Assembly: GCA_017544725.1 (NCBI GenBank)
Contig: JAFYDR010000293.1
Coordinates: forward strand, 1 to 38,196
Direction of reading: 5' to 3'
Length of the DNA stretch: 38,196 nt
Origin: Kiritimatiellia bacterium
Lineage (GTDB): Bacteria > Verrucomicrobiota > Kiritimatiellia > RFP12 > UBA1067
Each line of letters starts with the position of its first letter. Within the stretch, counting starts at the first letter, position 1. Below the pieces are notes generated by a model. It saw only the letters and a list, made by a program, of their open reading frames with translations, did no database searches and was not told the origin of the DNA. This document shows, one piece after another, positions 3,654 through 38,196 of this stretch. Made by a program: the position numbers and the translations under genes.

Positions 3654-3670
3654 CTTCTGGTTTTCAGGGA

Positions 3671-4572: not shown

Positions 4573-4596
4573 CTTTTCTCCTTTCAGGGTTCTGCG

Positions 4597-4618: not shown

Positions 4619-4651
4619 TTCCGTGATGACTACAACTTTTCGTGTGCCGCG

Positions 4652-17800: not shown

Positions 17801-18225
17801 GTCAGGTCGTTGCGGATGTCGTAGATCGAGGCGCGCGCCGATGCCGCGTGGTTCGTGAATACGCGGTCTGTCCAGCCGCCGTCAGGTCCCTCGTAGCGGA
17901 AGGTGCCGCTCCCGATTTGGATCACTCCCGTTGCGCCGAGGTTAGACGCCTTCCTGTCCGCGTCCAACTTCGAGACCACCAACGTACCGCACCCCTGCGT
18001 CGTCTTCCCTGAATAGGTGTTGATCGGGTTGAGCGAGACAATGCCGCCGCCGCTTGAGCCGTTGTTGATCGTCACATCCGTCTCGCCCGCGATCCGCTCC
18101 GCCACGTTCGTTGTCACGCCGTTCCCCGGATGGATCGTCAACGTCTCCGCGAGAGCAATGTTGGAAAGCACTGAAATCGAAAGCGCTCCAACAATAGCAA
18201 ACCGATCGAAAAACTGATTCTTCAT
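11899..18225 (-). CDS. Giant secreted autotransporter-type beta-strand repeat protein
   Basis: 2108 residues from the ATG at 18225, chosen because AAGGGA lies 8 bases upstream and the protein then starts with a clean signal peptide (MKNQFF... to SNIALA). The longer frame to 18261 lacks this fit. Many copies of the autotransporter-associated beta-strand (PATR) repeat are present, for example GAGTLVLSGANTYTGMT near the C-terminus and GSGTTELDS. Three large units of about 700 residues start near residues 25, 668 and 1377; each of the last two opens with a motif of the form W-x6-GNW...NAPGA. Each contains a GFR(I/K)F...G(K/R)V(V/I)(L/I)G block. The protein should form a long beta-helix at the cell surface. 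I see no C-terminal autotransporter barrel and no PEP-CTERM signal; it ends FRFGGTIIFVR. Function may be adhesion or surface display. Confidence 0.85.
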   Translation of the reverse strand: MKNQFFDRFAIVGALSISVLSNIALAETLTIHPGNGVTTNVAERIAGETDVTINNGSSGGGIVSLNPINTYSGKTTQGCGTLVVSKLDADRKASNLGATGVIQIGSGTFRYEGPDGGWTDRVFTNHAASARASIYDIRNDLTIASDLNQGYGAFVKTGPGTLYLDGTGTNNFGYGGGAPADSTSGIRAMFTPTANGDSPSKGFRIFHVLEGKLVLGRNGGTYRIKPTGDAGVGGWTTDSGQEKEATLEVVGGNTTFEGWIMHGAYNGKTANTPEKRTESTFRITGGNATFTTAFSLGRNKLGYSTFPQHSAPRLEVFGGKLTTEYFYIGEDRGANTYILITNGTLQANNLVLCGRCSGNIDTTNTLEICGTGIFYRNGAIYNDDASVLNIYVHDGGQLRINTINNSRYSDSNSSRTKGSTYGQIRLLIDGGTMRKTSNGGSNGTYANVTSVQIGAKGATIRTYGDSGVYWLFAPFTTQDGIEKDGGITLNALTDTAITAFAAVEQYNGPTILKAGGLALTRSGLLPPVTDFTMTGGFLLITNQNQTVATATFGTENASPALSLRVARDVKLASTGDLTVLGTPTLRVSLYQAKGVTTATTTGGTYPLLSAPTSSRTALEYLAAHATLANPALSTAPAAIFAVTEEGNTATLSVTVPEIATPAASAFTWTGAANDGDLWATGGNWDGNAAPNAPGAVPAFPDLDDTATLRTVTLAGTETVGGLSFTTTNGYTLTGGTLAFDNGYATVPITSLALATNVIDSAISGNSLLSVNTAATGSGLVRLTGDKSGFTGKLKTGSGTTELDSLAFVDDASKLTIGRGTLHYTGTGESIPGFALGAGGYVSILNIDNDLTLTSGVTCSSSCFTKSGLGDLFIKGTGSFRLGNAQVDKSSELGAGVNGDSPTSTFRSSQICGGRVVIGTVGDETDAPNVTVTGEVAIGSLLSGTNGLNETGGELIINNGNVAVSTVLGLGYYCGIRNFAPETTLLRYTQNGGTVTAKQFRSLWDKTYTQNVKAVITINDGTLTATSDMAYFNYHAGANAETEYTQNGGAVYLSDVTCGDVATNETRTYKPVTINLNGGMLSVPGTFRLANYSPGTCYLNEGATLRVGNLDGSQQTAKPESIFYARGGVLKPVVPSNANRELGYLTHLYIGEKGLFIDTSENAGLDLTYVYSFNLYQTLEPEPGIAQDGGVTIYGGGWVVPGNTSVGASTITGPIRVLDGVFGGNLSACATSTVILKPGSAMRGWGGWQAYKNLTLGEEGESKPVNLNFYNASSMATTNYCMIVSNDLQVLSPVTISLHTDNYSRNDTLVAGVYTALVFNASNPDVDTSLFHAPATKAGLAVTCEQITLEDGPYVGWKAIVATVTASAAAPDTASDTVWTAVSAGGNWSESVNWNGNPAPNAPGAQAVFNAATATAVPVRLDTDVTAGRLALYATATANGYALSGNPLTLDTGSRGMAYIAASAGTNTIANDVSYSGPVTATCPSGTRIAFTGHLTGTEAFNANYGYSTGGGEIYLADPSGISGRLYCLSGRLVVGCLGQVTSAANLLLGPSTLKYTGTGEEIPGFRLNAGSGKPSVVEIENDLAIRTVTVANGALIKSGPGDLILKGNGTFTMGNQAKNRESTANLRIKANGDPPVSGFRKFDITRGRVIAGTIDDDTDAPKIVCDDFSIGTSHAGDYDCEFVMNNGTLTGGSIYLGYYDGISSKCSLKLTVNGGTINATSLRTVQNNSENAYQNPTITINGGEVNLSAWLALGYQRSRISGYTSKLIVNGGRLNVGTSLYVAHYDSASTGSYRTTEGLVELNGGEVKLTNGVVNLCRQAATTGTLRLNGGTLTAQNIVTTRGTSKLYFNGGKYVPLADVEANQTLSGLTSAYVSTNGAWIDTGSVTCGVYTVAQALLRDPALDAVTADGGLHKLGAGTLVLSGANTYTGMTVVAEGTLRVTGQSSLSPDITLANNTTLDLNGTACSATNLILERGLVLPQVMNGSLTVNGSLVLGGMEADDAEVYTTTNLTIASGATLQTTPGNLLNVEGDLTCPTSMTVDFGLDGEEEGIALGTKIALATFTGNCTPPSSIKARNYGDATGTFLPTVEGKTLYLTFRFGGTIIFVR

Positions 18226-18282
18226 GCTCATTCCCTTCGCTTCAAAACCGAGTTCAAACAACTCTTAAAAACCTAAAGCAGT

Positions 18283-20945: not shown

Positions 20946-21527
20946 GTGCCGATTCCAACATCCACCACATTGTTGCGCGATATTTCGGGGGATCCATTAC
21001 ATCCCCGGTGGGATGATTTTGTTGCCCGTTATCGGCCCTTCATGCTATCCTTTCTGGAACGGCAGTTCCCGTTTCTCCCGGTGGACGACATCGTGCAGGA
21101 GACACTCATCGCGCTGGTTGAAATCCTGCCAAGCTACCAATACGACTCGGGCAGGAACGGACTCTTCCACAACTATCTGTCGGGCATCCTTCTCCGTAAG
21201 GCGTTACGCATTTGCCGTGAGAACGAGCAATACAAGAAAGCGTTGGCGGATTTCGCGATCGTTTCTCAAACGGCAGATTCCGGGGACGATGAGACCGAGT
21301 GGAAGAAACAGCTTTTTGAGATTGCGCTCCAACAGTTCCTCGACGATCCGTCCGTGGCGGATCGTACCAAGCGCATTTTCGAGCGCGTGGCTGTCAACGG
21401 TGAGTCGCCAGAGACTGTCGCGCGGGCGTTCAAAATGAATCGGCACGCCGTGGACCAGACTAAGGCTAGGTCGCTGGCGAAGATCCGTCGGCTGGTCGCC
21501 GCGTTGGGGGAGGTGGCGAATGCCTGA
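20946..21527 (+). CDS. ECF-type RNA polymerase sigma factor paired with a Ser/Thr kinase
   Basis: 193 residues from the GTG at 20946, chosen because AAGGAG lies 7 bases upstream and an upstream ATG at 20916 falls in the promoter. Region 2 (about residues 15-85) includes FLPVDDIVQETLIAL, the typical polymerase-binding helix; region 4 (about 130-190) has SPETVARAFKMNRHAVDQTKARSL, a helix-turn-helix for -35 recognition. It has no anti-sigma partner gene. Instead its end overlaps the kinase gene by 8 bases (ATGCCTGA), which implies translational coupling. ECF sigma factors linked to Ser/Thr kinases are known in PVC bacteria and elsewhere; in a studied Vibrio case phosphorylation of the sigma factor switches it on. 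That mode is inferred here. Confidence 0.82.
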   Translation: MPIPTSTTLLRDISGDPLHPRWDDFVARYRPFMLSFLERQFPFLPVDDIVQETLIALVEILPSYQYDSGRNGLFHNYLSGILLRKALRICRENEQYKKALADFAIVSQTADSGDDETEWKKQLFEIALQQFLDDPSVADRTKRIFERVAVNGESPETVARAFKMNRHAVDQTKARSLAKIRRLVAALGEVANA

Positions 21528-24339
21528 ACCCGCCGACACGATCGCCAAGCTCTGCGCCGAGCATCCGTCCATTCAGGACACAGGACGTTTTGCGGAAGGG
21601 ACTGTCTTCGGCGAGTGGTGGCTCACCGCATACATCGGACGTGGCGGGAACGGGGAAGTCTATTGCGCGGAGAACACTGTCTCTGGGGTATCCGCCGCCG
21701 TGAAGGTCTTGTTCCGCACCGAGGAGAGTGCGCGTGAACGCTTCCGGCAGGAGGCGAAACTGCTCTCCCGGCTCCAATCCGACGCATTTCCACGCTTCTA
21801 TTCCTTCGGCGAGACAAACGGTAGCCTGTATCTGGCGATGGAGTTGCTAGACCCCGGAGAACTGCCGACGCAGGAACGTGAAATCGCCTCCTTCTTGTTA
21901 CAGATCTGCAACGCCGTCTCGGAACTCCACGCGAAGGGTTTCGTCCACCGTGACATAAAGCCGTCCAACATCCTCTGGCGCGGCAAGCAACCGGTTCTTG
22001 CAGATCTTGGGCTTCTGAAAGACATCTCGCGCCCATCTCCGCTACCTCAAGAATCGCTGACACGTGTCGGCGGGAGGAAGGCGGGCGTGGGGACGCCTGG
22101 CTATGCGGCACCCGAGCAGATCGAGCGGGGAGAGGCGACGCCAGTGTCGGACATCCACGCACTCGGCGTCCTGGCGAACACCTGTTTCAACGGCAAGCCA
22201 CCTCGGGTTTGGCAGTCCATCATCCAGCGGGCGACCTCCTCGATTCCTTCGTTCCGGTACTCGTCTGTTTCAGCCTTCGCGCGTGCCATCCGTTACCGGA
22301 ACCTCGTCCGCTACCGTTACGCGATTCTCTCCGTCTTGGCGTTACTGGGTATTGTCGGGCTGTTGGCGGTCTTCCGTTCCGATCTCCCCACGGACGAATC
22401 GCGTCAGATTGAGAAGCCGGATGAGACGCTTGTTCTTGTGCCCTCTACGAACACCGAGTCCTACTGCGTGATCGACCTGTCTCCCGGACCATTCGCTACA
22501 AGTTATCCGGTCACCTATCTGGACAGGCAGCCAGAAGAGGGATTCAACACCGACGAGTACAAGACGATGAAACTGGTTTTGCGGCAGATTGACGCGGGAA
22601 CCTTTCGGATGCAGAACATCCGTACTGTCACATTGTCGCATCCGTTCTACATCGGACTATTCGAGGTGACACAGAAACAGTACGAGCTGGTGACGGGCGG
22701 GAACTCGGCGCAATACAAAGGGGCGATGCGTCCCGTGGAAAGGATAGCGTACGATTCGATTCGCGGAAGCTCTAATGGAACGAACTGGCCATCCTCCTCT
22801 ACCGTGGACGCAACAAGTTTCATGGGGAAACTTCGTTCCCGGACAGGACTTAAGTTTGACTTGCCTACGGAGGCGCAGTGGGAATACGCCTGCCGTGCGG
22901 GGACGACAAACGACTACAACAACGGTGGCAGTACAGCAAATGATCTGAATTTGCTCGGACGTTATTCCGGAAACAAGACGGATGGGAGAGGTGGTTACAC
23001 GAATGCGCACACGGTGGTCGGTTCCTATCAACCGAACGCATGGGGGCTTTACGATATGCACGGGAACGTCTTGGAATGGTGCTTGGACTGGAACGGGGTA
23101 CTGGCGTATGGTACAGATCCGAAAGGTCCCTCCTCTGGAACTGCCCGACACATTCGGGGCGGTGGATGGGACACCGGTGCGCCTGACTGTACTTCATCCC
23201 ATCGTTCGGATGGAACTCCGAGATACGGGAGTACCCGCGGTTTCCGTCTGTGCTGGACACTGGAGACGCAAGTCGTATTCCGTTCGGTGACATTCGACGC
23301 GAACGGCGGAAATGTTGCCGAGGCGACGAGGATAGTGGAAATTGGAACGGCAGTAGGAACGTTGCCGACGCCGATGCGCGCCGACTATGTTTTCAACGGG
23401 TGGTTTACGGAGGCTGACGGCGGAACTCCAGTGACGGCGGAAACTATCGTGACAGGGACTGTGGCGTACTATGCGCACTGGACGCCTACCGACCCCGTGT
23501 TCTCTCTATACTGTGTGATTGACCTCGCGGGAGGACCGTTGGCTTCCAGCTATCCGGTAATATACATGGATGTCGAGCCGAGCGGCGGTTTCAATGTGGA
23601 TTTGTACAAGACGACAAAACTGGTATTGCGAAAGATTTCCGCAGGCTCGTATATCATGGGTAGTGTACAGACCGACGAATCCCATCGCGTGACGCTGACG
23701 AAGCCGTTCTACATCGGACTCTTCGAAGTGACGCAGAAACAGTATGAACTGATTGCGGGGAACAATCCGTCTCGTTGTAAAGGTGACAAGCGCCCTGTGG
23801 AAAGCATATCTTACAATGGGATTCGCGGTTCCTCGAACGGGGCGCAATGGCCGTCCTCGTCAGCCGTGGACGCAGACAGTTTTCTCGGGAAACTCCGTGC
23901 TCGGACGGGGCTAGATTTTGATCTGCCAACGCATGCACAGTGGGAGTACGCTTGTCGTGCGTGTACAACATCAAAGTATAACAATGGAGGGGATACCGAG
24001 ATTGATTTGCAGTTGTTGGCACGATATGAAGGGAACATTTGGGATGGTGAAGGCGATTATTCTCCATATCACACAACGGTTGGTTCGTACCAACCGAATG
24101 CGTGGGGACTTTACGATATGCACGGCAACGTGTGGGAGTGGTGCTTGGACTGGGATGGAACACTGACATACGGAACGGATCCCAAAGGTGTACCTTCGGG
24201 AACGAAACGTGTGCGGTGCTGTGGATGCTGGAACTATGAAGCAGAGTATTGTGCGTCGTACAAGTACGGTCAATATCCTCCAACAGATACATTCCACTTT
24301 GATGGCGGTTTCCGCCTAGCCAGAACTCTGCCTGAATAA
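21520..24339 (+). CDS. Membrane Ser/Thr protein kinase with two extracytoplasmic FGE-like domains and an InlB-type repeat
   Basis: 939 residues. The cytoplasmic kinase domain (about 30-255) is complete: GRGGNGEV (40-47), K62, HRDIKPSN (D145, N150) and DLG (D162). One membrane segment follows (about 264-286, ILSVLALLGIVGLLAVF). The outer part has FGE-like unit 1 (about 314-583), an InlB/Listeria-Bacteroides repeat (585-657, VTFDANGG...YVFNGWFTEADGG) and FGE-like unit 2 (662-939). The units are close duplicates (both have FYIGLFEVTQKQYEL and NAWGLYDMHGNV) but differ strongly at their last 40 residues. Neither has the first of the two catalytic cysteines of formylglycine-generating enzyme, so they are likely ligand-binding rather than enzymatic. 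The gene overlaps the sigma factor gene and probably controls it. The ligand and phosphorylation targets are unknown. Confidence 0.85.
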   Translation: MPEPADTIAKLCAEHPSIQDTGRFAEGTVFGEWWLTAYIGRGGNGEVYCAENTVSGVSAAVKVLFRTEESARERFRQEAKLLSRLQSDAFPRFYSFGETNGSLYLAMELLDPGELPTQEREIASFLLQICNAVSELHAKGFVHRDIKPSNILWRGKQPVLADLGLLKDISRPSPLPQESLTRVGGRKAGVGTPGYAAPEQIERGEATPVSDIHALGVLANTCFNGKPPRVWQSIIQRATSSIPSFRYSSVSAFARAIRYRNLVRYRYAILSVLALLGIVGLLAVFRSDLPTDESRQIEKPDETLVLVPSTNTESYCVIDLSPGPFATSYPVTYLDRQPEEGFNTDEYKTMKLVLRQIDAGTFRMQNIRTVTLSHPFYIGLFEVTQKQYELVTGGNSAQYKGAMRPVERIAYDSIRGSSNGTNWPSSSTVDATSFMGKLRSRTGLKFDLPTEAQWEYACRAGTTNDYNNGGSTANDLNLLGRYSGNKTDGRGGYTNAHTVVGSYQPNAWGLYDMHGNVLEWCLDWNGVLAYGTDPKGPSSGTARHIRGGGWDTGAPDCTSSHRSDGTPRYGSTRGFRLCWTLETQVVFRSVTFDANGGNVAEATRIVEIGTAVGTLPTPMRADYVFNGWFTEADGGTPVTAETIVTGTVAYYAHWTPTDPVFSLYCVIDLAGGPLASSYPVIYMDVEPSGGFNVDLYKTTKLVLRKISAGSYIMGSVQTDESHRVTLTKPFYIGLFEVTQKQYELIAGNNPSRCKGDKRPVESISYNGIRGSSNGAQWPSSSAVDADSFLGKLRARTGLDFDLPTHAQWEYACRACTTSKYNNGGDTEIDLQLLARYEGNIWDGEGDYSPYHTTVGSYQPNAWGLYDMHGNVWEWCLDWDGTLTYGTDPKGVPSGTKRVRCCGCWNYEAEYCASYKYGQYPPTDTFHFDGGFRLARTLPE

Positions 24340-26184: not shown

Positions 26185-27393
26185 CTATTGCTTTACTTCG
26201 CGCGCCAACTGCGCCCTTGAAAAACCCATCGCGAGATCGCCGATAGTGCGAGCCGCGAGGTTCAGCCACTCGAAGCGAGCCTTGCCGTAGTTCGCGCGCG
26301 GCGCATGAGGCTGGCGAGGCGCAAACGGCGACAGCAGCAGCATGCGCCCTTGGGAGCAGAAGTCGAAATCGCGGCCACCCGGTTTGTAGTAGCGGCCCAT
26401 GCCCTCGGCCAGCAAATGCACGATTCTGCCGTCGCGCGCGAGTGCCTCGGCTTTCACGGCCTTCTCGCCCGGAGATATCCAGGGACTCACCAGAACCACA
26501 CCTCGCTCGGCCTTCGCGCCAAGCTTTGAAACGAGCTCTTCTATCTTATCGCTGGGGGTTGCCGTAGAGATTCGTACACTCACGAGGAGCGGGGCGTCGA
26601 GGAGAAATGGATTGCCCATGGCAGTCCAAGCGAGAGGGGTAGCTTGCCCACCTTGCGCCCCCTTGTTGTCGTACGCTTGCTGTTTCTCCGTCCTCTTGTT
26701 GTCGTACGCTTGCTGTTCTTCAAACGCCCGCAGGATCCGATTCCCCTTCCTCGGCTTCACGATCTCCTCGCCAGTTTCCAGATCCCAGTATTCACACCCT
26801 TGCGCCACTCCGCCGCCATCGTGCGCGAAGCCCCGGAAATCCCAGCTGTCGGCACCAGCAACACCTGCAAGCGTTTCACTCGCGCGATCAAGCCGCCAAT
26901 GCCTGAAGCCCATCACCTTCTTGAAGAGACCTGGATTGTTCTCCTTGATCCACCGGCGCTTCGCATTTGACAGCACGTATTCGATCTGGCGGTGAAGCTG
27001 CCCCTTGGCAAGGCAAATCGAATCACGCCAGAGTGGACACCACACGCGGCGGCCGATACGCCGCTCGACTTCGCTTGCGAAAAACTCGACAACGGCCTCA
27101 AGGTTGACTACCCCATCGGCCATGATATAAACGATCCCGTGGAAATGATCGGGCATGATCGCGTTGTAGGTGGCCCTCACATCCGGGAACTTGGACTCCA
27201 CCGCCTGCCAGGCTTCGTAAACAGCCCGCCCTTCTTCGGAGCGCTCAACACCCCACTCGCGCAAGGTTCCGAAGATCGAGACGCGCGGCTCCGCGACGAG
27301 GGTGATCATGTAGTTGCAGCGGGCATCGTAACGCCAGCCAAGGAGCCCTTTGTGACGCATAGGGGTGACCTCTTGCTGTTGTACGCTTCCCAT
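26185..27393 (-). CDS. HUH transposase (IS200/RAYT type) with a DprA-like C-terminal domain
   Basis: 402 residues from the ATG at 27393, which has AAGGAG 7 bases upstream; the longer frame to 27498 would run over repeats and the end of the next gene. Residues 10-180 are a Y1-type HUH endonuclease: IMPDHFHGIV gives H83/H85 and QIEYVL gives the catalytic Y139. Known relatives (REP-associated tyrosine transposases) move or maintain small palindromic repeats. Residues about 262-385 resemble the Rossmann-like DprA/SLOG fold: GVVLVSPWISPGEKA, ALARDGRIVHLLAEG, then GRMLLLSPF. The linker (about 226-243) contains two in-frame 11-residue repeats (QQAYDNK) encoded by a 33-base DNA duplication. No terminal inverted repeats of an insertion sequence are obvious. 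Confidence 0.72.
   Translation of the reverse strand: MGSVQQQEVTPMRHKGLLGWRYDARCNYMITLVAEPRVSIFGTLREWGVERSEEGRAVYEAWQAVESKFPDVRATYNAIMPDHFHGIVYIMADGVVNLEAVVEFFASEVERRIGRRVWCPLWRDSICLAKGQLHRQIEYVLSNAKRRWIKENNPGLFKKVMGFRHWRLDRASETLAGVAGADSWDFRGFAHDGGGVAQGCEYWDLETGEEIVKPRKGNRILRAFEEQQAYDNKRTEKQQAYDNKGAQGGQATPLAWTAMGNPFLLDAPLLVSVRISTATPSDKIEELVSKLGAKAERGVVLVSPWISPGEKAVKAEALARDGRIVHLLAEGMGRYYKPGGRDFDFCSQGRMLLLSPFAPRQPHAPRANYGKARFEWLNLAARTIGDLAMGFSRAQLAREVKQ
26663..26717. repeat. Two tandem copies of a 22-base repeat inside the transposase gene
   Basis: The 22-base repeat occurs at 26663-26684 and 26696-26717, reading TTGTTGTCGTACGCTTGC plus TGTT on the plus strand, with a period of 33 bases. It is in frame and codes QQAYDNK twice. 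Related copies are at 27372-27390, 27412-27434 and 27457-27479. Confidence 0.75.
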
Positions 27394-27479
27394 TATCTTA
27401 CTCCTTGCCCCTCTTGCTGTTTTACGCTTGCTGTCATTGCACCCTCTCCCCTGCCTATTGCTGTTGTACGCTTGCTGTT
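27372..27479. repeat. Three more copies of the same repeat at the 5' side of the transposase gene
   Basis: Copies at 27372-27390, 27412-27434 and 27457-27479 share TTGCTGTTGTACGCTTG-type sequence. The first codes QQQ near the transposase N-terminus, and the last supplies the final codons (SVQQQ) of the beta-helix gene. They may be the REP-like substrate of the transposase. Confidence 0.7.
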
Positions 27480-28711
27480 CCACCCCACTCACCCTCAAAG
27501 TCGTTGTTCTCGGTCGTCAGCTTCTCGACCTTCCCCTTGATGTCGAAAAACTGTATCGGCTGATCCAGGCGGTTGCGCATCTTGCAGTCGCGCACCGTGA
27601 GATGCCTGACCACCGCTTCCTTGTCAACGCGGATCGTGGCTACGGGGAGATTCCGCTCGTCGCGGCTCAGGTTGCGGATCGCGAGATTCCCCACATCCAC
27701 CGGACCCTGCACCCAAATCGGCGGGTAGTTCGTGCGCGAATTGACGCCGATGCCTTCCGGCGAAAACACCTTCGCGGAGAAGACATCGGAGATGACGATG
27801 TCATCAAAAACTCCGCGCGGCCGCTTCGGGAAGAAGTGCGTGAGGCCGACGGCGTAGGTGTAGAAGTTGCCGTGGACATTCCGGATGGTCACGCGCTTCA
27901 GTTCCGCGCCGGTGGAGAGGAGGCGCACCGCGCTGTGGCAGTAGTCGGCATAGACGCCGTCGATGTCGATGTCCGTAATCGGGCCCTGCTCCTGTGCGCA
28001 CTGGCCGTCGTTCGCGTTGAGCGCGACGAGGTCGTCGAAACAGGTTCCGCGTAGGTTAGATATTTTCCCGTGGTGGCAGTAGCCGTCGAAGTGTACGCCG
28101 TCGAGGTTGAGCGGAATCGGATTCCACGTGGTGTAGTCGAAGGAGACATCATCCACGAGGAAATAGGAAGTCTTGCAGAACGCCATTCCGTACGAGGTGG
28201 GATTGCGCACCGTCACGCCGCGCACGGACATCCCCTCCACGTTAGAGAACCGCATGGCCATGCCGAAGAAGAAATCGTTCTCGTGCTGCGGGGGCATGGG
28301 CGACGGCTTCGGCGGCTTCAGGCGGCCGTACTGCTGCGGATTGGGGGACTGGTCGAGGTTCGCCATGTCCCAGATGCCGCCCGTGATGGCGATGCGTTTG
28401 TCCGATCCGCCCACGTAGCCGCAGTTCTCGATCATCGGACAGTCCGACTTCGGCGCGAGCCGGATCACGGAATAACGGTCCAGCCGCAGTTCTTGGTCGG
28501 AGCCGATCTTGAGCGTCTTGGAGATCAGGTAGCACTTCGGCGGTGGCGGCAGGTACACGCAGCTTGCGCCACTGTCCAGCCGCGACTGGATCGCCGCGGT
28601 ATCGTCGGCGACGCCATCGCCCGCAAGCGGCGGAAGCGCGACGCCCTCGCCAGATGCGAGATGTGCTGCGCCGACCAAAAACCAAAGAATCGAGATCGAA
28701 CAGGCTTTCAT
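27455..28711 (-). CDS. Secreted beta-helix protein, GH28/pectate-lyase-like
   Basis: 418 residues with a signal peptide (about 1-21, SILWFLVGAAHLASG). DGVADDTAAIQ near the start is the typical first strand of pectate-lyase-3/GH28-type right-handed beta-helices. NLDGVHFDG and CFDDLVALN resemble the NTD and DD motifs of polygalacturonases (GH28); the GHG and RIK motifs are not evident. It may cut a pectin-like or other acidic polysaccharide. AGGAG lies 8 bases before the ATG. The last six codons (ASVQQQ) are made from the 22-base repeat found in the transposase gene, so the natural C-terminus has probably been changed. A 15-base palindrome lies upstream at 28741-28755. Confidence 0.75.
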   Translation of the reverse strand: MKACSISILWFLVGAAHLASGEGVALPPLAGDGVADDTAAIQSRLDSGASCVYLPPPPKCYLISKTLKIGSDQELRLDRYSVIRLAPKSDCPMIENCGYVGGSDKRIAITGGIWDMANLDQSPNPQQYGRLKPPKPSPMPPQHENDFFFGMAMRFSNVEGMSVRGVTVRNPTSYGMAFCKTSYFLVDDVSFDYTTWNPIPLNLDGVHFDGYCHHGKISNLRGTCFDDLVALNANDGQCAQEQGPITDIDIDGVYADYCHSAVRLLSTGAELKRVTIRNVHGNFYTYAVGLTHFFPKRPRGVFDDIVISDVFSAKVFSPEGIGVNSRTNYPPIWVQGPVDVGNLAIRNLSRDERNLPVATIRVDKEAVVRHLTVRDCKMRNRLDQPIQFFDIKGKVEKLTTENNDFEGEWGGTASVQQQ

Positions 28712-28925: not shown

Positions 28926-31900
28926 CTATTCTCCTAGCACCATACGGCTGTGGTTGGCATAGATGCGGCGGGGATCGGCGGCGTAGGCTTCCAGCGTCTT
29001 CCGTGCGATACCATCCTGATCACCGAGACGGAAGAGGGCGCGCGCTACGCAGAGTTCGCGCAGACAGTCGGAACGTTCTTTGTCGCCCGCTTTGTTCGCA
29101 TAGCCTGGAATCACAGGAATGTCTTTCGTCATCTTCAACGCATGACCTCCAATACCGGGCTTTTGCAGCAACTCTGCCAACGTAGCTGCCGCCGTTTTGT
29201 CGCCGATGGATTCCAGCGCGAGCGCGACGGCGCGGAAGTGCGAGTACTGATTGTCCTGACCGAGGATTTTCACCTTTTCGAGAATCGCAGGAACAGCCTT
29301 GACGGAACGGCAGCATCCGAGGGCGATGATGTAGCTATCTACCCAACTGATGCTGCGGTTGAACTGTCCCATGCCTCGATAATTCCACCCCGGATCCCAC
29401 TGCGTTGTCTCCAGCTTGCGGATCAGGTCGCGCTCCCCGTCCTTCTCTCCCATCATGGCGAGGACATGCGCGTAAATCAAGCGGTTGGTCTCGACCGTGG
29501 CGGAAGCATACGCCCGCTTGAGCAGCGGAATGGCGCGCGCAGGGTCGGTCATCACGACATGCAGTCCGATGTAATTGTTCGGCATATCGCGTACCGCCTT
29601 CCGCATCTTCTCGTCGGAAATCGGGAAGGAGTCTTTCATCGTCAGCACTTCGGGTTTCAAGATTCCCTTATCAACGAGATGCCGCTGCAGAGCCTTCACG
29701 TTCACGTTGCGAACAGTGACGCCCGCGTCGATTGCCATCGCGGCGGCAGTGCCAGCCGCGTACCCTTGGTTCTGCACGTCGGGTTGCATCCGTAGGACAG
29801 GCATGGCATCGCGATGTGCGCTCATGCCGAGTCCGATCACGAGCAGTCCGTCCAGTTTCTGCGGCAAGAAGCATCGGTAGGGGACGTTGACGGCAATACC
29901 GTTGTGACCGGGATCGTCAATGAAGAAGAGCGGATGTACCGTCTGTCCGTGCGTGTCGAAGTTGCTGTACGGCTGCGAGACCGTGTCCGGATAGGTGCGG
30001 TGGTTCATGATGTCCATCGGCGTGACGTAATACGCGCCGTGCATCCGGCGACGTTCGCGGGTGTTGACAACCTGCGCCTGATCCCAAATGCCATCGCGCA
30101 TACTTTCGCGGGAACGGAGTGCGAAGTAACAGAGGTCGGCGGCATCGGAGTCATCGACAAATCCGATGTCCGTATTGGTGTAGCGTGCACCGAGTGTACG
30201 CGGCGTCATGCCGGCTCCCTGTACGCTGATCTCCTCCGCATTGACGAATTCGGTCGGTTCGCCTGCGAGGGCGGGCAGCACGGCGTTGCCTGTCGCGTCG
30301 ATGGCGACCTTGCAGCGGATGACGCCGCGTTCGCCGTCCGGCGCAATCACGACCACGCCAGTAAGCGCACCGTTCTCGATGACGACGCCGCTCACGAGCG
30401 TACCGTACCAGACCTCGCCGCCATATTCGCGGTATTGCTTGCGGTACCATTCGATACGTCCCTGCTCCAGCACGGCTCCAGTCTCTTTTTCGCCGGCATC
30501 GATTTCCTTGGTGAACCCGACGCGGTTGCCAAACCAGTAAATACCGATCAGTCCGTCCGTCTGCACGCCGCCCATCGAGTACAGGTAGTCGCAGATGATG
30601 ACCTTCTTCCCGTGGCGTCCGGCGGCGATTCCGGCGGGTGCGCCGCCCGTACCGGCTCCGGCAACGAAAACATCGCAACTTGCAAGAACAGGCAGTTCGC
30701 GGTTGCCGACAACAACGCTCCCTTTCGTGTTCGTCAGGTAACCGGGCAACGAACCGCTCGTCTCCCCGACTTTGGTACCAGCGGCGGCAACTTGAGTACT
30801 CGCCTGCAGGGAGACCTTTCCGACGGCAGGAAGCGTCGCCGCAAGTTTGGCGGCAGCCTCGCCGACACGGCTACCGACTGCCATGTAGTTGCCCGGGCGC
30901 ATGAGTTCGGTGGCTGTTTCACGCGGCACGTCCGCCAAAGCACCCAGCACGAACAGGTTTGGATATCCGGTGGGTTGCAGGGACTTCAAATCGAAGGAGT
31001 CGGCACCTTGCCACGAAGCGGAGGAGGATGCCGCCGCACGGATATGATCGGGCGGCGTGAAAATCGTCGTGTCCGATCCGGTCAATTGCTGGCGCGTAAA
31101 CGTCGCGTCACGAGTACGCTGTTCCGCTTCGGCGAAGGAACGTGCGGAACCGTCCTTCATCGGTAGCGTGATGGAACAAGAGAACATCTTACCGGTGATA
31201 ACACCCGAGAATTGATGTCCCATTTGGTTGCGCGCGGGATAGACACCAAGAATCTCGCGGACTTTCATCCCTTCCGCTTTCGGCATCTCTCCGCTGAGGA
31301 CCATGCGCGTGAAGGTGTAGTTCCCTGCGGGGAAAGGAGTGATCGGACTGCCTGCCAGCCGCGCCACGTGCGCCCGTTCCGTGGCATCGATCACTACCTT
31401 CGCCCGGACGACCTGCCGACCGCTGCGGTTCGCCATGATGACACCTGCCAGCTTGCCGTTTTCATCGGTCACGGTTTCCGTCACCATCGCGCCGGTGAGG
31501 AAAGGAATTTGCGCCTTGAGCAGAGCCTCGTCCAGCGTCTTCTTCACTTTGAGCGGCGTGGTGCGGTCGGAAACGGTCACGCTCGGTTTCTCATCAGAAT
31601 AGATGAAGATCTCGCCGAGCAACTGCCGGGAGACGCCCACAGCCTGTTTTGCGATGATTTCCAGTTCACGGTATTTCCCCCTGAAGGGAAGCTCCATCAG
31701 ATGAGACTCGTCGCCACCTTCCACGACTCTCCACTCCTTTCCAGTGACGGGCGCTGACCAATCCTTCCCATCCGCGCGGCCACGGATGGTCACGGATTCG
31801 GTTTTGAACCCCCTTTCCGGATGGTCGCGCATAAAGGAGGCGATGACGACTTTTGTAATCGCGCAGGTTTTGCCGAGATTGAGAGACAAGGTCACGTCGC

Positions 31901-32336
31901 CGGCATATTGGACACTGTCTTTCGGCGCTAGCAGATAATTGCCGTCATTGAGCCGTCTCAGATCCGGATCGGCATGCGCGTTTTCCGCCTTGCGGCTTGC
32001 CGTATAGATGAACGGAAGCGAATCGGCGGGTCGTGACGATTCCGTGAACATCTCGCGTACGAGCGGGGATCTGGTGTCATCGTTCGGATCAAGGTGGATT
32101 CGAAGTTTGCCCGCCATGTCCTCTCCCAAGTAGGGACGCGGCGCGATCAGGAAAACGCGGGCACCCGCCGCCTTGGCGCGACAAGCTGCCGCCACCGCGC
32201 CGGAGCTACCGCCCACCACGACCACATCAACATCCTGCACCAAAGGAAGCGTACGCCCTGGCTCCACAATCGAGTCGGCATTTGCTCCGCAACACAACAC
32301 ACCAAACAAAATGCATCCCAAAAGTTTTTTCATCAT
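28926..32336 (-). CDS. Secreted tandem FAD-dependent oxidoreductase with C-terminal helical repeats
   Basis: 1136 residues from the ATG at 32336; AAAGGA lies 5 bases upstream, and the next ATG (32333) is an equal choice. The signal peptide ends near CCGANA. Two FAD_oxidored-type Rossmann units are present: VVVVGGSSGAV (about residue 36) and VFVAGAGTGGA (about 552). The first is interrupted at about 125-247 by a beta-rich, F5/8-type-C-like insert (LNLGKTCAITKVVIASF...RELEIIAKQ). The second unit has GGVQTDGLIGIYWFGNR, typical for this family. The last 200 residues look like HEAT-type helical repeats. The reaction is unknown. The next gene upstream codes a haem protein, so an electron-transfer partnership is possible, but the 206-base gap leaves operon status open. 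Confidence 0.78.
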   Translation of the reverse strand: MMKKLLGCILFGVLCCGANADSIVEPGRTLPLVQDVDVVVVGGSSGAVAAACRAKAAGARVFLIAPRPYLGEDMAGKLRIHLDPNDDTRSPLVREMFTESSRPADSLPFIYTASRKAENAHADPDLRRLNDGNYLLAPKDSVQYAGDVTLSLNLGKTCAITKVVIASFMRDHPERGFKTESVTIRGRADGKDWSAPVTGKEWRVVEGGDESHLMELPFRGKYRELEIIAKQAVGVSRQLLGEIFIYSDEKPSVTVSDRTTPLKVKKTLDEALLKAQIPFLTGAMVTETVTDENGKLAGVIMANRSGRQVVRAKVVIDATERAHVARLAGSPITPFPAGNYTFTRMVLSGEMPKAEGMKVREILGVYPARNQMGHQFSGVITGKMFSCSITLPMKDGSARSFAEAEQRTRDATFTRQQLTGSDTTIFTPPDHIRAAASSSASWQGADSFDLKSLQPTGYPNLFVLGALADVPRETATELMRPGNYMAVGSRVGEAAAKLAATLPAVGKVSLQASTQVAAAGTKVGETSGSLPGYLTNTKGSVVVGNRELPVLASCDVFVAGAGTGGAPAGIAAGRHGKKVIICDYLYSMGGVQTDGLIGIYWFGNRVGFTKEIDAGEKETGAVLEQGRIEWYRKQYREYGGEVWYGTLVSGVVIENGALTGVVVIAPDGERGVIRCKVAIDATGNAVLPALAGEPTEFVNAEEISVQGAGMTPRTLGARYTNTDIGFVDDSDAADLCYFALRSRESMRDGIWDQAQVVNTRERRRMHGAYYVTPMDIMNHRTYPDTVSQPYSNFDTHGQTVHPLFFIDDPGHNGIAVNVPYRCFLPQKLDGLLVIGLGMSAHRDAMPVLRMQPDVQNQGYAAGTAAAMAIDAGVTVRNVNVKALQRHLVDKGILKPEVLTMKDSFPISDEKMRKAVRDMPNNYIGLHVVMTDPARAIPLLKRAYASATVETNRLIYAHVLAMMGEKDGERDLIRKLETTQWDPGWNYRGMGQFNRSISWVDSYIIALGCCRSVKAVPAILEKVKILGQDNQYSHFRAVALALESIGDKTAAATLAELLQKPGIGGHALKMTKDIPVIPGYANKAGDKERSDCLRELCVARALFRLGDQDGIARKTLEAYAADPRRIYANHSRMVLGE

Positions 32337-32542
32337 CTCGTTCCTTTTCGTCTGTAACGAACAGCTCCCACTCTCTCTTGCGGACACTCCTCCGCTTTTC
32401 AGCTTATCCAGCTGTCGGTAAAACCATCCTGCGCGGCGGTCGCGACACTTAACCACTTAGGTCCGAAAGTCCATTTAGTGGCGCAGCCACGCTTAGTCGC
32501 TCCGCGACACTTACTTCCTAAAACCGCATAGCGGCTGAATCG

Positions 32543-35500
32543 TTAGTCTTCCAGCAGGACGCGGAAACCGACATCGTGAACGCGCTGCCAAGTGCGGTAG
32601 AGTACCGTGGTGGCGAAGGTCGCTTCCTTCGGGCGTGTCCAGAAGGAGCCGCCTCGCGCAACGGCGTACAGTTCTTTATCGGGTTCCGTCTTTGGAATTG
32701 TCACAGGCTGTGCGGTCGGGGATGCAGGACGTCGATCCGCCGTCCACTCCCAGACATTGCCTTGCACGTTGCGCAATCCCCAAGCGTTGGCTGCGAAAGC
32801 ATCGACAGGTGCGGTGACGCGGTACTTGTCGTCGAAGCGTTCATCCGCAGGACGCCAAGGAGGAACCGCCATGCCGGGAACGGCGGCGCGGAACCGATCC
32901 TGTCGGCGGAAGGTCTTGTCCGCCAGGTTGGCGAGCTTCGAGAAATCGACATCTACACCGCCGTACCACAGTGGTGTCGCTTTGCCGGCGCGACCTGCCC
33001 ACTCCCATTCGTTGCCGGTCGGGAGTCGCACGACGCATTTGCAACGCTCGCCGACGAGACGGCAGAATGTCGCGGCCTCTTCCTGTGAAATACGCACAAC
33101 AGGTTGCTTCGGCTTGTTGAGCGGGTAACCGCGTTCCTGTTCCGTGAACTGCATGAACTCGCCGCGTTCCAGCTTGCTGTCGTGTTGCGGGAAGATGCGA
33201 CGATACTGTTCGTTGGTGATTTCGTCCTCGCTGATCCAGAAGGAACGCGGAATCTGAACCTCCTCCCCATACGCATTGCGGTACCGTCCGGTGGGGATTT
33301 TCACGAACCTGATGGAGACACCGTCACCCAACGAGAGTTCCTTACGCGTTTCCGCCGTTTTCAGTTCGCCGACCTCCAGAATGGTCGCGGAACCGTCGAA
33401 TACGCGTTGTGCGGTGGCAGGCAAAGGGGCGTTCGTGGGAACCGAGAATCGGGCAGGACCGTACGTTTTCTCGTGGTCTTCTTCCAGGTTGGCATAACGT
33501 TTCTGCAGATCTGCTCGGCGTACCGCGAAATGGTGGACGCGGTTGGTTCCGACGGTCTCGTGCCAGGTGCCGTGTCCCATGCGATTCAGGTCGATCCAAG
33601 TGTTGATACGATCCCACGACTCCGTGTCGAGCACGACACCGTGATGCCCGCGTTCCAACATCTGCACGAGTGCGGTGGTACTGGCCGCGAGATCACAGGG
33701 CGACAGCACGTCGTTGTCACCTTCTTGCGTATGACTGCGCACATAGGAGCAGAGTGCGATGTAGGTAGGCGGGAAGAGGCCATCATTCATGTAATAGGTC
33801 TCCTTCGTCTTGATACAAATGTTCGGACGGTCGGTTAGATTGGGACGATTTGTGATACCGTCCTCATGGTGGCAGCGGATACAGTAACGGTCGAGAACTG
33901 GCTGTACCTCGCGCCGGAAGTCGAAACCGCGTTCCGGACCGTACCACGGACGGATCTCAGAGGGCGGACGTTCCATCGCGAGCAGTCGCCGTGCCTGTCC
34001 TGAACTGGCCTGCGTTTCCTCATGGCATCCGGAGCAGGATGCGAATTCGCCAGGCATGACGTTCATCCAGCTACGCATCAGCTGCAACGCACGCCCTTTG
34101 TTGTCCAACGGCTGAATCGAAATCGGCAAGTTGGCAGGCACCTTGAAATAGGCGGAACCATCCGATTCCACGGGAACGGTTCCCATGATTCGCTTGATGT
34201 CCCACGGACCGTCCAGCCCGTGGTGGTCGGTCTCGCCTCCCATCCACCTGTAGGCAAAGGAATAGGTGTACAGGCGTAGTGCCTTGACGGTTCCGCGAGG
34301 AACGCCTTGCAATCCCAGTCCGTCATAGATATCCGTGACCTTTACCAGTCCCTCTTTCGACGTCGGGTTGATCTTGGAAGGGATGACAGGTGGAACGGGC
34401 GCAGGCTGTATGGGAATCGGCTCGAAGAAAACGTGGTCCGATTCTTCGAGAATCGGCGTCAGGTTGTCAAACGCATCCGCCAGGTACAACCCCCAGCCAT
34501 CCTTTTCCGTCGGACGCGCCGCAACGATCACATAATTCTCGCTGAGCGGCCAAGGATGGCAGAACTTCGGCCAGGAATAATCGGCAAGACGGTCACGCAC
34601 GATCGGTTCAACCCGTTTTCCACGTTCCGGGAAACGCTGAACGACGCCGAGTGCCTCTTTCCGTCCCTTGTTGATGTCGAAGAGAATCAACTCGCCATAG
34701 CGCGGTTGACCGTGGTGACCGGAGATAATCGCGGTAAAGCGCGTCGGCGCGTCGGGACAGATGCGCGCGTTGAAAAGCGCGTTCGGCCAATAGGAATCGC
34801 TTCCGTAGTAGGCGCGTTGTGTCGTACCGTCCGGATTCATCGTAAAGAGAATACGCGTGCAATAGTGCGTGATGTCCGCATATTCCCAGTGCAGGAAAAG
34901 GATACGTCCGTCTGGCATCACGGTGGGACACCAGTTGTTGTCCTGATCGAAGGTCAGGCGACGAATGGACCCGTCTGTCTCCGCTCGGTAGATACTTGCC
35001 ACCCACGAGCTGCCGACCACACAAGGAACGCCAACCATCGAGGCATCGGAAAGAAAGAGCTTGGCACCGTCCGGCAAGTAACAGCCCGCATAGCAGTTGA
35101 CGTCGTTATCGGGAATGAACGTCAGTTCAACAGGCTTGGCGTCTGGCTTCGAAACGTCCAACTCGAAGACGCGGTGAATCGCCTCGTTCGCACGGCTGGA
35201 ACGAACCTTGGGAGGATGGTCGATCCGATCCGTCCGCCGCGTGTACATCACACGCTTGCCGTCCCAGTGCAGACAAAGTTCGCCGATATACCCGTTGTCT
35301 GGCGACTTGTCCAACACGGTAAACTTCGGCTTCCCGCGAAGGTCTTGCAGAATGCCCAATTCGTTCGGTTGTCCGCCGAAGAGGTCACGCGGCTGATTCC
35401 AGTTTTGGTAGAGGCCAAGACGGTCCGGCTTACGGCGAATCAGAAGCAGCTTATCGCAGTCCAGCAACGGATTGGCGAGCAGATGTCCCCGCAGTTCGCG

Positions 35501-35794
35501 GAGAAACTGCTCTGCACCAGCGACCGGTTCGGGTCCGCCGTAAAACGCACCCCAATCACCCTTGATGGAATCGAGAAGTACCTTCTGACGTTCCTCGAAT
35601 GTCCGCAACCATTCAGGATTCGCCTCGAAACGGGCGGGCCAACGTTTCACCATGTCCGCCCATGCGGCACGAACGTTTTCGACACGGATAGATTCCAACC
35701 GACGGATTGCGCGGTTCTCGCGACTTTCTGCAAAGAGTACGTTGCTCGAAAGGAGCAAGGCACAGACCATGACAACAGACCAACGAATTTTCAT
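32543..35794 (-). CDS. Hydrazine-synthase-alpha-like dihaem protein with C-terminal FGE-sulfatase domain
   Basis: 1083 residues with a signal peptide (about 1-22, CALLLSSNVLFA). A large middle region is a beta-propeller resembling the HZS alpha family (LTFIPDNDVNCYAGCYLPDG, GRILFLHWEYAD). Two c-type haem motifs follow: CSGCH (C587, C590, H591) and CIRCH (C638, C641, H642). The C-terminus (about 830-1083) is an FGE/SUMF1-type domain (EDEITNEQYRR, NAWGLRNVQGNVWEW, GFRVLLED), and its active-site cysteines are absent. HZS-like alpha proteins outside anammox bacteria are of unknown function; no other hydrazine synthase subunit is present, so hydrazine synthesis is unlikely. The promoter is placed so close that the mRNA may be leaderless. 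Confidence 0.78.
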   Translation of the reverse strand: MKIRWSVVMVCALLLSSNVLFAESRENRAIRRLESIRVENVRAAWADMVKRWPARFEANPEWLRTFEERQKVLLDSIKGDWGAFYGGPEPVAGAEQFLRELRGHLLANPLLDCDKLLLIRRKPDRLGLYQNWNQPRDLFGGQPNELGILQDLRGKPKFTVLDKSPDNGYIGELCLHWDGKRVMYTRRTDRIDHPPKVRSSRANEAIHRVFELDVSKPDAKPVELTFIPDNDVNCYAGCYLPDGAKLFLSDASMVGVPCVVGSSWVASIYRAETDGSIRRLTFDQDNNWCPTVMPDGRILFLHWEYADITHYCTRILFTMNPDGTTQRAYYGSDSYWPNALFNARICPDAPTRFTAIISGHHGQPRYGELILFDINKGRKEALGVVQRFPERGKRVEPIVRDRLADYSWPKFCHPWPLSENYVIVAARPTEKDGWGLYLADAFDNLTPILEESDHVFFEPIPIQPAPVPPVIPSKINPTSKEGLVKVTDIYDGLGLQGVPRGTVKALRLYTYSFAYRWMGGETDHHGLDGPWDIKRIMGTVPVESDGSAYFKVPANLPISIQPLDNKGRALQLMRSWMNVMPGEFASCSGCHEETQASSGQARRLLAMERPPSEIRPWYGPERGFDFRREVQPVLDRYCIRCHHEDGITNRPNLTDRPNICIKTKETYYMNDGLFPPTYIALCSYVRSHTQEGDNDVLSPCDLAASTTALVQMLERGHHGVVLDTESWDRINTWIDLNRMGHGTWHETVGTNRVHHFAVRRADLQKRYANLEEDHEKTYGPARFSVPTNAPLPATAQRVFDGSATILEVGELKTAETRKELSLGDGVSIRFVKIPTGRYRNAYGEEVQIPRSFWISEDEITNEQYRRIFPQHDSKLERGEFMQFTEQERGYPLNKPKQPVVRISQEEAATFCRLVGERCKCVVRLPTGNEWEWAGRAGKATPLWYGGVDVDFSKLANLADKTFRRQDRFRAAVPGMAVPPWRPADERFDDKYRVTAPVDAFAANAWGLRNVQGNVWEWTADRRPASPTAQPVTIPKTEPDKELYAVARGGSFWTRPKEATFATTVLYRTWQRVHDVGFRVLLED

Positions 35795-36032: not shown

Positions 36033-36210
36033 GGCAACGGGAACGTTGCCCCTCCCATAGCCCCGTAGGGGCGGCACAGTTTCGGGCAACGAGGACGTTG
36101 CCCCTCCCATAGCCCCGTAGGGGCGACACGGTTTCGGGCAACGAGGACGTTGCCCCTCCCATAGCCCCGTAGGGGTGACACAGTTTCGGGCAACGTCCCC
36201 GTTGCCCGCG
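36033..36210. repeat. 52-base tandem repeat, about 3.4 copies
   Basis: Units start at 36033, 36085, 36137 and 36189. Each has GGCAACG-AGGA-CGTTGCC (or close) followed by CCTCCCATAGCCCCGTAGGG and a GCGACACGGTTTC-like tail. The last copy is partial and has the centre TCCC. Each unit can fold into two hairpins (GGCAACG/CGTTGCC and CCCC/GGGG). Confidence 0.85.
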
Positions 36211-36322: not shown

Positions 36323-37525
36323 TTAGCCGCCTGTCGTACACGACAACAAACATTTTGAAAAAACATCTTTCGCAGTACCGATTCCGAATCTGTCAGCGAC
36401 CGTCAGCAAATCCTCTTTCGAGATGTCCGAGAAACGTCCGTTGACAGACATATTGTGCGTCCCGGCATGGGTACTCCATGGGTCGGTGGAAGGATAGTCC
36501 GCCCCCGTAAGGTCATATGCTGGCGCGAGCCGCCACCCTTCGCCTTCCTTCAGTATGAACGAGAAGTTTTTGGGATGGTCGTCGAATTCGCCGCTTAGGA
36601 CGTTGAACGTCATACGGCGAAATATCTCCTCGCGGTCTTCGTATGGAAGATGCAGCGAATCGGCCGCAATGAACAACTGCTCGTATCTGCGATGTTCGGG
36701 CGGTGTCTCTGCAGGAAGATGCGCCATCCCCGAAAGCGAAAGCAGATGATGACGACACCCTCCTTCACGATCGAAGCGTTTTGTCATGAAATGTTTGATT
36801 CCATCCACTTCGCAGAGCCGCGACTCGCTCATGCGAATTCCCACCGCCCTTGCCCTCTCGTGATGCTTGAACTCGCGTTCACCTCGCCACGGATATTTTT
36901 GCGGCGTGAACTTTACGATCCAGTGTTCGTAGCCAGATGGCAGGTCACGGTCACCAATCAAAAACCGGTCTTCTGTGCGGTTCCACCCCACGACGGCCTT
37001 CGCTTGGGCACCGCCAGCCGAAGAGCCGAGACGGATGATCATGCGCAGGGCGTCATCCCTGTCTCTGCTCCTCAACTCGCCGTTGACGACCCGTCGCGCA
37101 GACTCCGCAAGCGTCCGAATATCGATCGCCGTAGGACGTCTGCCTGGACTCCAGTCCGGCTCGTATGTCAACGCTCCCATTCCGCGACTTCCGATGTACG
37201 CAAGCTCGTCTAACGGCGTAATCTCACTACGGTCGATTCCGTGTTCTACAAGCCAGTAGTCAACCAACCCGCGTCCGAACGAATCAGGAAGAGAGTCCGC
37301 AAATACCGGCGGTAGTCCGGAATATGCGGACTGTGGCAAGTCGGGAAACACATACGGCTCGCGTCTGAGCGGCATCATGAGTGGTGAGATTTCGATTCCA
37401 GACAAGAGAAATTCGCGCTCGAAGCGGAAGGCATAAACACCGGGTTGCGGCGCGGCGACAAGAGAACCGACGCGCCGTCCCCAGAGGAAGACGCGGATCT
37501 TTCCGACATGGACCAGGCGGGTCAT
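36323..37525 (-). CDS. hipA: HipA-type toxin kinase
   Basis: 400 residues, the usual HipA size. The N-terminal domain holds ADSLPDSFGRGL, followed by GSSAGGAQAKAV (nucleotide-binding/ejecting loop region), then GEFDDHPKNF (D315-N320) and LAPAYDL, all landmarks of the HipA kinase fold. E. coli HipA phosphorylates glutamyl-tRNA synthetase and stops growth; the target here is not known. It is translated from the hipB mRNA with a 4-base overlap (ATGA), antitoxin first. The last codons (CTTGG then TAA) come from a GGCGGCTAACGCTGCC repeat module, similar to the end of the phosphatase gene at 9002. Confidence 0.88.
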   Translation of the reverse strand: MTRLVHVGKIRVFLWGRRVGSLVAAPQPGVYAFRFEREFLLSGIEISPLMMPLRREPYVFPDLPQSAYSGLPPVFADSLPDSFGRGLVDYWLVEHGIDRSEITPLDELAYIGSRGMGALTYEPDWSPGRRPTAIDIRTLAESARRVVNGELRSRDRDDALRMIIRLGSSAGGAQAKAVVGWNRTEDRFLIGDRDLPSGYEHWIVKFTPQKYPWRGEREFKHHERARAVGIRMSESRLCEVDGIKHFMTKRFDREGGCRHHLLSLSGMAHLPAETPPEHRRYEQLFIAADSLHLPYEDREEIFRRMTFNVLSGEFDDHPKNFSFILKEGEGWRLAPAYDLTGADYPSTDPWSTHAGTHNMSVNGRFSDISKEDLLTVADRFGIGTAKDVFSKCLLSCTTGG

Positions 37526-37833
37526 GAAACACGCCCTTTCCTCGGCGAACCCGCACGCAACCGACGACGACGTTCTGGCGGACGGTCGAAATAGGCGTCG
37601 TCAAGAACCGGCGGCGCAATGTTCACGATCCAGTCCGTGAGGTGCAACGTCTTACAGAGTGCCATAAGCGAAAGCGTAGAAGCGTTGTGTCCGTCCTCGA
37701 TGTTACGCACGGCCTTCAGCGAAATGCCGCTCCTGTCCGCAGCGGTCTGCTGCGAAATGTTATCGGCAAGCCTCGCCGCCCTCAATGATCGACCAAGCGT
37801 GATCAGCATCTCTGCATTCGTCTCGTATAGCAT
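37522..37833 (-). CDS. hipB: HipB-type antitoxin, XRE-family repressor
   Basis: 103 residues. The helix-turn-helix is ISQQTAADRSGISLKAVRNIEDG (about 25-47, split here for length: ISQQTAADRS then GISLKAVRNIEDG). The C-terminal part ends in a basic tail (PPERRRRLRAG). It should bind HipA and repress the shared promoter. It overlaps hipA by 4 bases. The start has AAGG about 8 bases upstream. Two TATAAG boxes in the promoter region are likely binding sites. Confidence 0.85.
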   Translation of the reverse strand: MLYETNAEMLITLGRSLRAARLADNISQQTAADRSGISLKAVRNIEDGHNASTLSLMALCKTLHLTDWIVNIAPPVLDDAYFDRPPERRRRLRAGSPRKGRVS

Positions 37834-37894: not shown

Positions 37895-38196
37895 TAGAAA
37901 TGTGATTAGACACACTTTCTTCACTTACCCCACCCAACACGATTGGCGGCGTTAGCCACCTTGAGAGGGGCACTTCGTTCGAAGTGAAGAATGAAAAATG
38001 ACGAATGAAGAACTGTGGCACTTTTTCTCTTTTCATTCTTCTTGCCTGCTTCGGGAGGGGCAACGTCCCCGTTGCCTAAATCGGGAGGGGCAACGTTCCC
38101 GCTGCCCGAATGGGAGGGGCAACGTCCCCGTTGCCTAAATCGGGAGGGGCAACGTCCCCGCTGCCCGAATGGGAGGGGCAACGTCCCCGTTGCCTA
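37895..38196. repeat. Repeat-rich right edge with 30-base tandem hairpin units
   Basis: No gene is seen. A degenerate GGCGGCGTTAGCCACC module (about 37944-37959) and a GAATGAAAAATGACGAATG tract come first. From 38051 to the window end, units of 29-30 bases (starting 38051, 38081, 38110, 38140, 38169) repeat GGGAGGGGCAACGTCCCCG followed by TTGCC or CTGCC. Each has the inverted repeat GGCAACG-TCCC-CGTTGCC. The array continues past the window. Confidence 0.8.

Follow-up and report, generated by a model that had tools for sequence, protein, structure and literature searches.

A secreted dihaem homolog of hydrazine synthase alpha with an FGE-fold C-terminus in a Kiritimatiellia genome and its putative beta-gamma partner

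Introduction

Hydrazine synthase (HZS) has been regarded as unique to anammox bacteria. The reference for its alpha subunit was chain A (kuste2861) of the Kuenenia structure 5C2V. In HZS, Tyr591 ligates haem alpha-I and the CXXCH histidine binds zinc (PMC12607021, PMC12758564). Homologs of HZS alpha and of a fused beta-gamma protein from outside anammox were placed in clades I-IV by Hagglund et al. 2025 (PMC12758564), where a shared alpha/beta-gamma complex was suggested, and Phycisphaerae and KSB1 metagenome-assembled genomes were reported to carry low-similarity hzsABC-like genes, which its authors suggested may belong to a wider family of enzymes acting on other substrates (PMC10732223). 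The present analysis concerns an alpha homolog encoded on a stretch of 38,196 nucleotides (the window; contig JAFYDR010000293.1 of assembly GCA_017544725.1, Kiritimatiellia bacterium).

A first-pass annotation made from the sequence alone had proposed a new class of periplasmic redox enzyme or sensor. The novelty is narrower than that, as HZS homologs outside anammox, the fused beta-gamma protein and the loss of Tyr591 are already published (PMC12758564, PMC10732223). For the FGE-fused clade, the copy expansion, the ratio of one core to many heads and the co-inheritance figures given below, no description was found in the literature searched, which lay outside subscription papers and supplements.

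Domain architecture and fold

The window gene was confirmed to encode a secreted HZS-alpha homolog with two haem motifs that ends in a formylglycine-generating enzyme (FGE)-fold domain (Table 1); homology, domain order and haem motifs were read directly from the computations. Genes were called with a home-made caller trained on window genes. The N-terminus of the 1083-residue protein, MKIRWSVVMVCALLLSSNVLFA, is Sec-signal-like, in keeping with the periplasmic location annotated earlier. The Pfam profile PF18582 (HZS_alpha) matched with E 2.9e-31 and 108 bits vs a cut-off of 26.6, and the FGE-sulfatase profile PF03781 matched residues 835-1080 with E 1e-33. The AlphaFold2 model, built on a 45-row alignment (A6), reached a mean predicted local distance difference test (pLDDT) score of 85.7 and a predicted template modelling score of 0.86, and its best match in the PDB was HZS alpha 5C2V (Foldseek E 1.6e-26). 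Residues 112-750 superposed on 5c2v_A with Z 31.6 and a root-mean-square deviation of 3.0 over 562 residues; TolB propellers matched residues 105-465 with Z about 24. Full-length orthologs of about 74% identity occur in other genera, so the architecture is not due to chance.

Table 1. Positions of the alpha gene, its parts and the neighbouring flavin adenine dinucleotide (FAD) protein gene in the window
Feature	Position	Strand	Basis or remark
HzsA-like dihaem protein with FGE-fold C-terminus, 1083 aa	32543..35794	-	Open reading frame, Pfam, AlphaFold2 model
Sec-type signal peptide, residues 1-22	35729..35794	-	By eye; hydrophobic run checked
Beta-propeller, about residues 112-480	34355..35461	-	Model residues 112-750 on 5c2v_A, Z 31.6
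HZS_alpha middle domain PF18582, residues 501-592	34019..34294	-	Pfam profile
Haem I site CSGCH, residues 587-591	34022..34036	-	Position of HZS Tyr591 (His+4) is Gln595
Haem II site CIRCH, residues 638-642	33869..33883	-	Motif and alignment to HZS alpha
His717, aligned to HZS alpha His772 (haem alpha-II distal ligand)	33644..33646	-	Profile alignment
Domain of FGE (SUMF1/PvdO/C-type-lectin-like) fold lacking both FGE cysteines, residues 812-1083	32546..33361	-	
Secreted tandem FAD_oxidored protein, downstream of alpha	28926..32456	-	Likely true start near 32336 (Met41, before a signal-like stretch)

The C-terminal residues 812-1083 matched PvdO (Z 26.4), TvpA of T. denticola (Z 26.3) and human FGE (Z 22.1). 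The pair of copper-binding cysteines of FGE (Cys336/Cys341) is absent from the window domain, and none of 132 FGE domains of related alphas had both. In a tree of 155 non-identical alphas (a sequence check confirmed 152 of the 155 tip names), all 110 FGE-fused members fell into one clade with a support of 93.4, a pattern that suggests a single fusion event. FGE relatives are over-represented in the sample, as an FGE-type alignment was used to find the named loci; among alphas from loci sampled via PF18582 only, 16 of 47 had the domain. A total of 226 relatives were found and 79 loci were read, with full-length FGE-fused relatives in Kiritimatiellae, Verrucomicrobia, Akkermansiaceae, Lentisphaerae, Planctomycetota, Hydrogenedentota and Armatimonadetes records. 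The window's own genome yielded 45 matches to the FGE family, and the fold is therefore a common module there. Elsewhere in the window (21520-24339, plus strand), a 939-residue protein combines a Ser/Thr kinase domain with two domains of FGE fold.

Haem sites and cytochrome c maturation

Of 186 alphas examined for haem motifs, the first site could be placed in 178. A second CXXCH followed within 130 residues in 177 of these, and a tyrosine stood at His+4 of the first site in 3. At the second site, His642 and His717 align with His689/His772 of HZS, the bis-His ligands of haem alpha-II. The profile alignment pairs His717 with the histidine at chain position 745 of 5C2V; this position corresponds to His772, since the offset of 27 puts the CXXCH histidine (position 662) at His689, which is named as a haem alpha-II ligand in PMC12607021. 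As His717 is also invariant across the 45-row alignment, the bis-His site looks intact as judged from the alignments. The alignment to HZS ends one residue short of the zinc-binding Cys303, and the next residue of the window protein is Asp333; Cys303 is reported absent from Scalinduaceae (PMC12758564). The propeller, the two haem motifs and the FGE domain without active-site cysteines all agree with what had been annotated.

The cytochrome c maturation gene CcsA (PF01578) was counted in 56 genomes of the window's family (38 alpha-positive, 18 alpha-negative) and in 240 genomes of the phylum (49 and 191). It was present in 38/38 alpha-positive vs 8/18 alpha-negative genomes of the family and in 49/49 vs 96/191 of the phylum (Fisher p 5e-13), and the association held at genus level (21/21 vs 60/110, p 1.5e-5). 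The window's own genome carries CcsA (G000:C41), so the absence of maturation genes, which the first-pass annotation had named as fatal to its reading, did not materialise; neither did its other refuting condition, a propeller unlike that of HZS alpha. ResB was not found in this genome, which is 75% complete, and was present in 3 of 3 congeners searched. The haems of alpha-type proteins are probably real.

A fused beta-gamma homolog

In a genus of another family (g63), a fused HZS beta-gamma homolog lies directly after the alpha-FGE gene at three loci (L277, L278, L279). The protein of L277 matched 5c2v_B with E 2e-25 and 5c2v_C with E 5e-20, and profile matches reached 3e-41 and 8e-38. Its predicted beta part gave Z 41.3 to 5c2v_B, the next entry reaching 34.8. 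The gamma part was modelled with low confidence (mean pLDDT 75.2) and 5c2v_C was not among the structure matches listed, so the putative gamma identity is based on sequence. No conserved cysteine was seen at the spacing of Cys165, the third-thioether cysteine of gamma, among 23 beta-gamma sequences, two of which (L286 and the fused L146) are not aligned at the haem site.

The first-pass annotation held that the other HZS subunits were absent. A beta-gamma homolog is in fact present in the same genome, on contig C337 (bases 353-2181, split into two frames), and an intact copy is held by the congener G008. A CCP_MauG profile search of the own genome had returned a sub-threshold match only, at C337; a full-length beta-gamma query identified this match as the beta-gamma gene, and a reading of no cytochrome c peroxidase (CCP) would thus have been a false negative. 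The two genes are almost always inherited together. In the family, 37 genomes had both, one had alpha alone, one had beta-gamma alone and 17 had neither (beta-gamma in 37/38 alpha-positive vs 1/18 alpha-negative genomes); in the phylum the numbers were 46, 3, 3 and 188; the p-values of 3e-12 and 6e-42, respectively, overstate the association because related genomes are not independent.

In one genome the two genes are also joined. A single frame of 3114 residues (L146:3488-12829, G012:C36) encodes HZS_alpha, FGE, PKD and CCP_MauG in that order; it is read as a natural alpha-FGE/beta-gamma fusion, and no other observation hints so directly that alphas of the FGE type may work with beta-gamma. 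Beta-gamma genes directly follow an alpha-FGE gene at L300-L305 as well, and alpha adjoins beta-gamma in several lineages both within and outside the FGE clade. Among the listed places, beta-gamma lies near CcsA on one contig in 14 of 38 beta-gamma-positive genomes of the family.

A tandem RidA-like gene (PF01042, FkbO/Hyg5-like) follows beta-gamma in the own genome (G000:C337, L297:293-3253) and at L277-L279, L299, L306-L308, L311, L315 and L316. It adjoins beta-gamma in 11 fetched loci (8 of the family, 3 of g63), is followed by ResB and CcsA in several relatives, and shows no signal peptide by eye. This neighbour may hint, weakly, at imine or amine chemistry.

Copy number

Alpha-positive genomes of the family held a median of 12 and up to 36 alpha copies (538 in total), compared with a median of one beta-gamma copy (58 in total; exactly one in 22 of 38 positive genomes), in counts made by hand that treat fragments on separate contigs as separate copies. 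At least 8 alpha paralogs were found in the own genome, 3 of the 8 with an FGE domain. In one paralog (L053:5934-10895, 1654 aa), an esterase-like (AXE1) N-terminus precedes the dihaem alpha in one fused protein.

Proposed function and alternatives

The reading preferred here, with moderate confidence, is that the window protein is a periplasmic or secreted dihaem alpha subunit of an HZS-like complex, one of many heads that share a beta-gamma core. The own-genome alphas would probably share one fused beta-gamma subunit encoded elsewhere, made up of a seven-bladed propeller and a di-haem peroxidase/MauG-like module. The gamma haems would handle electrons or an oxidant, for example peroxide, nitric oxide or hydroxylamine, and an equivalent or a small intermediate would then reach haem I of alpha, a second redox site predicted to be a conventional c-haem and not the Tyr-ligated, zinc-linked haem of HZS. 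Binding and positioning of the target may fall to the alpha propeller and to the FGE-fold domain, itself non-catalytic, and different alphas would in that case steer a single redox core towards different substrates. More tentatively, the whole could be a modular HZS-related periplasmic system, widespread in rumen and other Verrucomicrobiota, in which up to dozens of interchangeable alpha heads, with targeting or catalytic add-ons of their own (FGE-fold, F5/8C, laminin-G, esterase, GH123), draw on a single peroxidase-like beta-gamma core, and which is directed at glycan or amine substrates rather than hydrazine.

Several observations weigh against a shared complex. The window alpha gene does not adjoin beta-gamma, and the beta-gamma copy of its genome is interrupted by a frame break, which reflects either faulty assembly or a pseudogene. 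Beta-gamma lay at most two genes away or fused in only 14 of 179 alphas (three partly overlapping sets not chosen for beta-gamma), and the window gene is not one of these 14. Among the phylum genomes, 3 of the 49 with alpha lacked beta-gamma (G081, G259, G262) and 3 of the 191 lacking alpha carried beta-gamma (G140, G141, G145), and the co-occurrence statistics are inflated as stated above. Alpha outnumbers beta-gamma, and many alphas may therefore work without it. Tyr591 is replaced by Gln595, so the chemistry at alpha-I cannot equal that of HZS.

The scarcity of beta-gamma near alpha, together with neighbours and fused domains that include glycoside hydrolases, esterases, F5/8C, laminin-G, sulfatase and aldo/keto reductase, would also suit a stand-alone dihaem protein for binding, sensing or electron transfer, with alphas that no longer depend on beta-gamma and act on sugars or glycans. 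This seems rather doubtful given the near-perfect co-inheritance and the natural fusion. That the CXXCH motifs carry no haem and the protein is a purely structural or binding propeller can be given very little credit: most hosts are anaerobes of gut or rumen, as judged from named relatives, but both motifs are kept in nearly all alphas with a first site and CcsA is in every alpha-positive genome examined in family and phylum. Less credible still is a true hydrazine synthase or an unrecognised anammox system, although the genome holds both alpha and beta-gamma homologs. The haem alpha-I tyrosine is absent and the NCBI equivalog NF052339 scored 48.6 bits against a cut-off of 800; on these sequence grounds the window protein is no hydrazine synthase and would not be expected to form hydrazine, and PMC12758564 concludes likewise for other homologs.

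The tandem FAD oxidoreductase encoded downstream had been put forward as a possible partner, and alpha could take electrons from it in a two-gene periplasmic dehydrogenase. Both genes lie on the same strand with 206 bp from the alpha stop to the likely FAD start, both proteins have signal-like N-termini, and FAD homologs (58-60% identity) stand beside alpha in four genomes of genus g3 too; at E 1e-40, homologs were present in 31/38 alpha-positive vs 6/18 alpha-negative genomes (p 7e-4). Conservation of the pair did not hold up, as adjacency was seen only in the window and in the four g3 genomes, where the FAD gene is convergent and not in an operon. The closest alpha orthologs (G017, G036, G047 and G055; 68-75% identity) have no close FAD relative alongside; the only one seen, in G055, is distant (23% identity) and lies four genes away. 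The congener G008 has an FAD homolog of 86% identity with no alpha on the 4.1-kb stretch read, 7 of 38 alpha-positive genomes lack a homolog at the same threshold, and FAD_oxidored is a multi-copy family here. What stands is the genome-level association, weaker than that of beta-gamma. The FAD protein is thus a possible but weak candidate partner, and a dedicated dehydrogenase pair is improbable.

If the preferred reading of one shared core is true, a strictly co-inherited alpha/beta-gamma set with one-to-many copy numbers in gut-type anaerobes would reveal the role of the ancestral complex and make HZS-like complexes available from organisms that are less difficult to work with than anammox bacteria. 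HZS_alpha matches turn up often in metagenomes from rumen and lakes and should not be taken as a marker of anammox.

Gene neighbourhood and other features of the window

A conserved operon around the window ortholog was ruled out, as the neighbours vary between genera. Across phyla, the gene that recurred most often beside alpha encodes an aldo/keto reductase and lies just upstream (7 of 79 named loci). Of 122 alpha neighbours, 120 were scanned, all but the HipA gene and an alpha fragment; glycoside hydrolases, IclR regulators, iron-containing alcohol dehydrogenases and aldo/keto reductases were among them, and enrichment is not claimed. Just upstream of the window alpha gene lies a HipA-like gene (36323-37833, minus strand; PF07804, PF13657), preceded by a gene of 103 aa that looks by eye like a helix-turn-helix antitoxin.

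A GC-rich intergenic repeat, GGGAGGGGCAACGT, occurs in 10 copies in the window vs 0.02 expected, with copies at 36043-36160, 38053-38184, 10942 and 11835. The gene at 26185-27498 has a weak likeness to transposases associated with repetitive extragenic palindromes (E 0.0015, below the cut-off). A 2121-residue autotransporter-like protein with a passenger-associated repeat (PATR, PF12951) is encoded at 11902-18264 (minus strand). Genes for a protein with a YhcH/N-acetylneuraminate anomerase-type C-terminal region, a BNR/sialidase-like protein and a short-chain dehydrogenase/reductase are clustered at 438-4626, possibly a sialic acid cluster.

Comparison with known systems

The closest described system is HZS. 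The window protein shares with HZS alpha the propeller followed by middle and C-terminal haem domains in one fold, both CXXCH motifs and the equivalent of His772; it differs in the lack of Tyr591, in a CXXCH spacing of about 51 residues vs 102, in the added FGE-fold domain and in its many paralogs, and the partner beta and gamma are fused and usually not adjacent. The homologs of PMC12758564 likewise have an alpha-I site without Tyr591 and a fused beta-gamma; in their clade I, however, His772 is reported absent, whereas His717 aligns with it here. The available text of that paper makes no mention of formylglycine, Kiritimatiellota, Verrucomicrobiota or Akkermansia, and its sole use of "paralog" concerns HAO. 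The Phycisphaerae and KSB1 genes (PMC10732223) are comparable as low-similarity hzsA-like genes, with no FGE fusion or copy expansion described in the portion of text available.

Residues 812-1083 have the fold of the FGE/SUMF1, PvdO, GldK/PorK and TvpA family (PF03781), from which the window domain departs in lacking the FGE cysteine pair and in being fused to a cytochrome. The planctomycete PSCyt proteins (PMC5615132) belong to other domain families, with no HZS_alpha described in the text available, and resemble the present system as c-type cytochromes with carbohydrate-binding modules that occur in many copies and near sulfatase genes in Verrucomicrobia.

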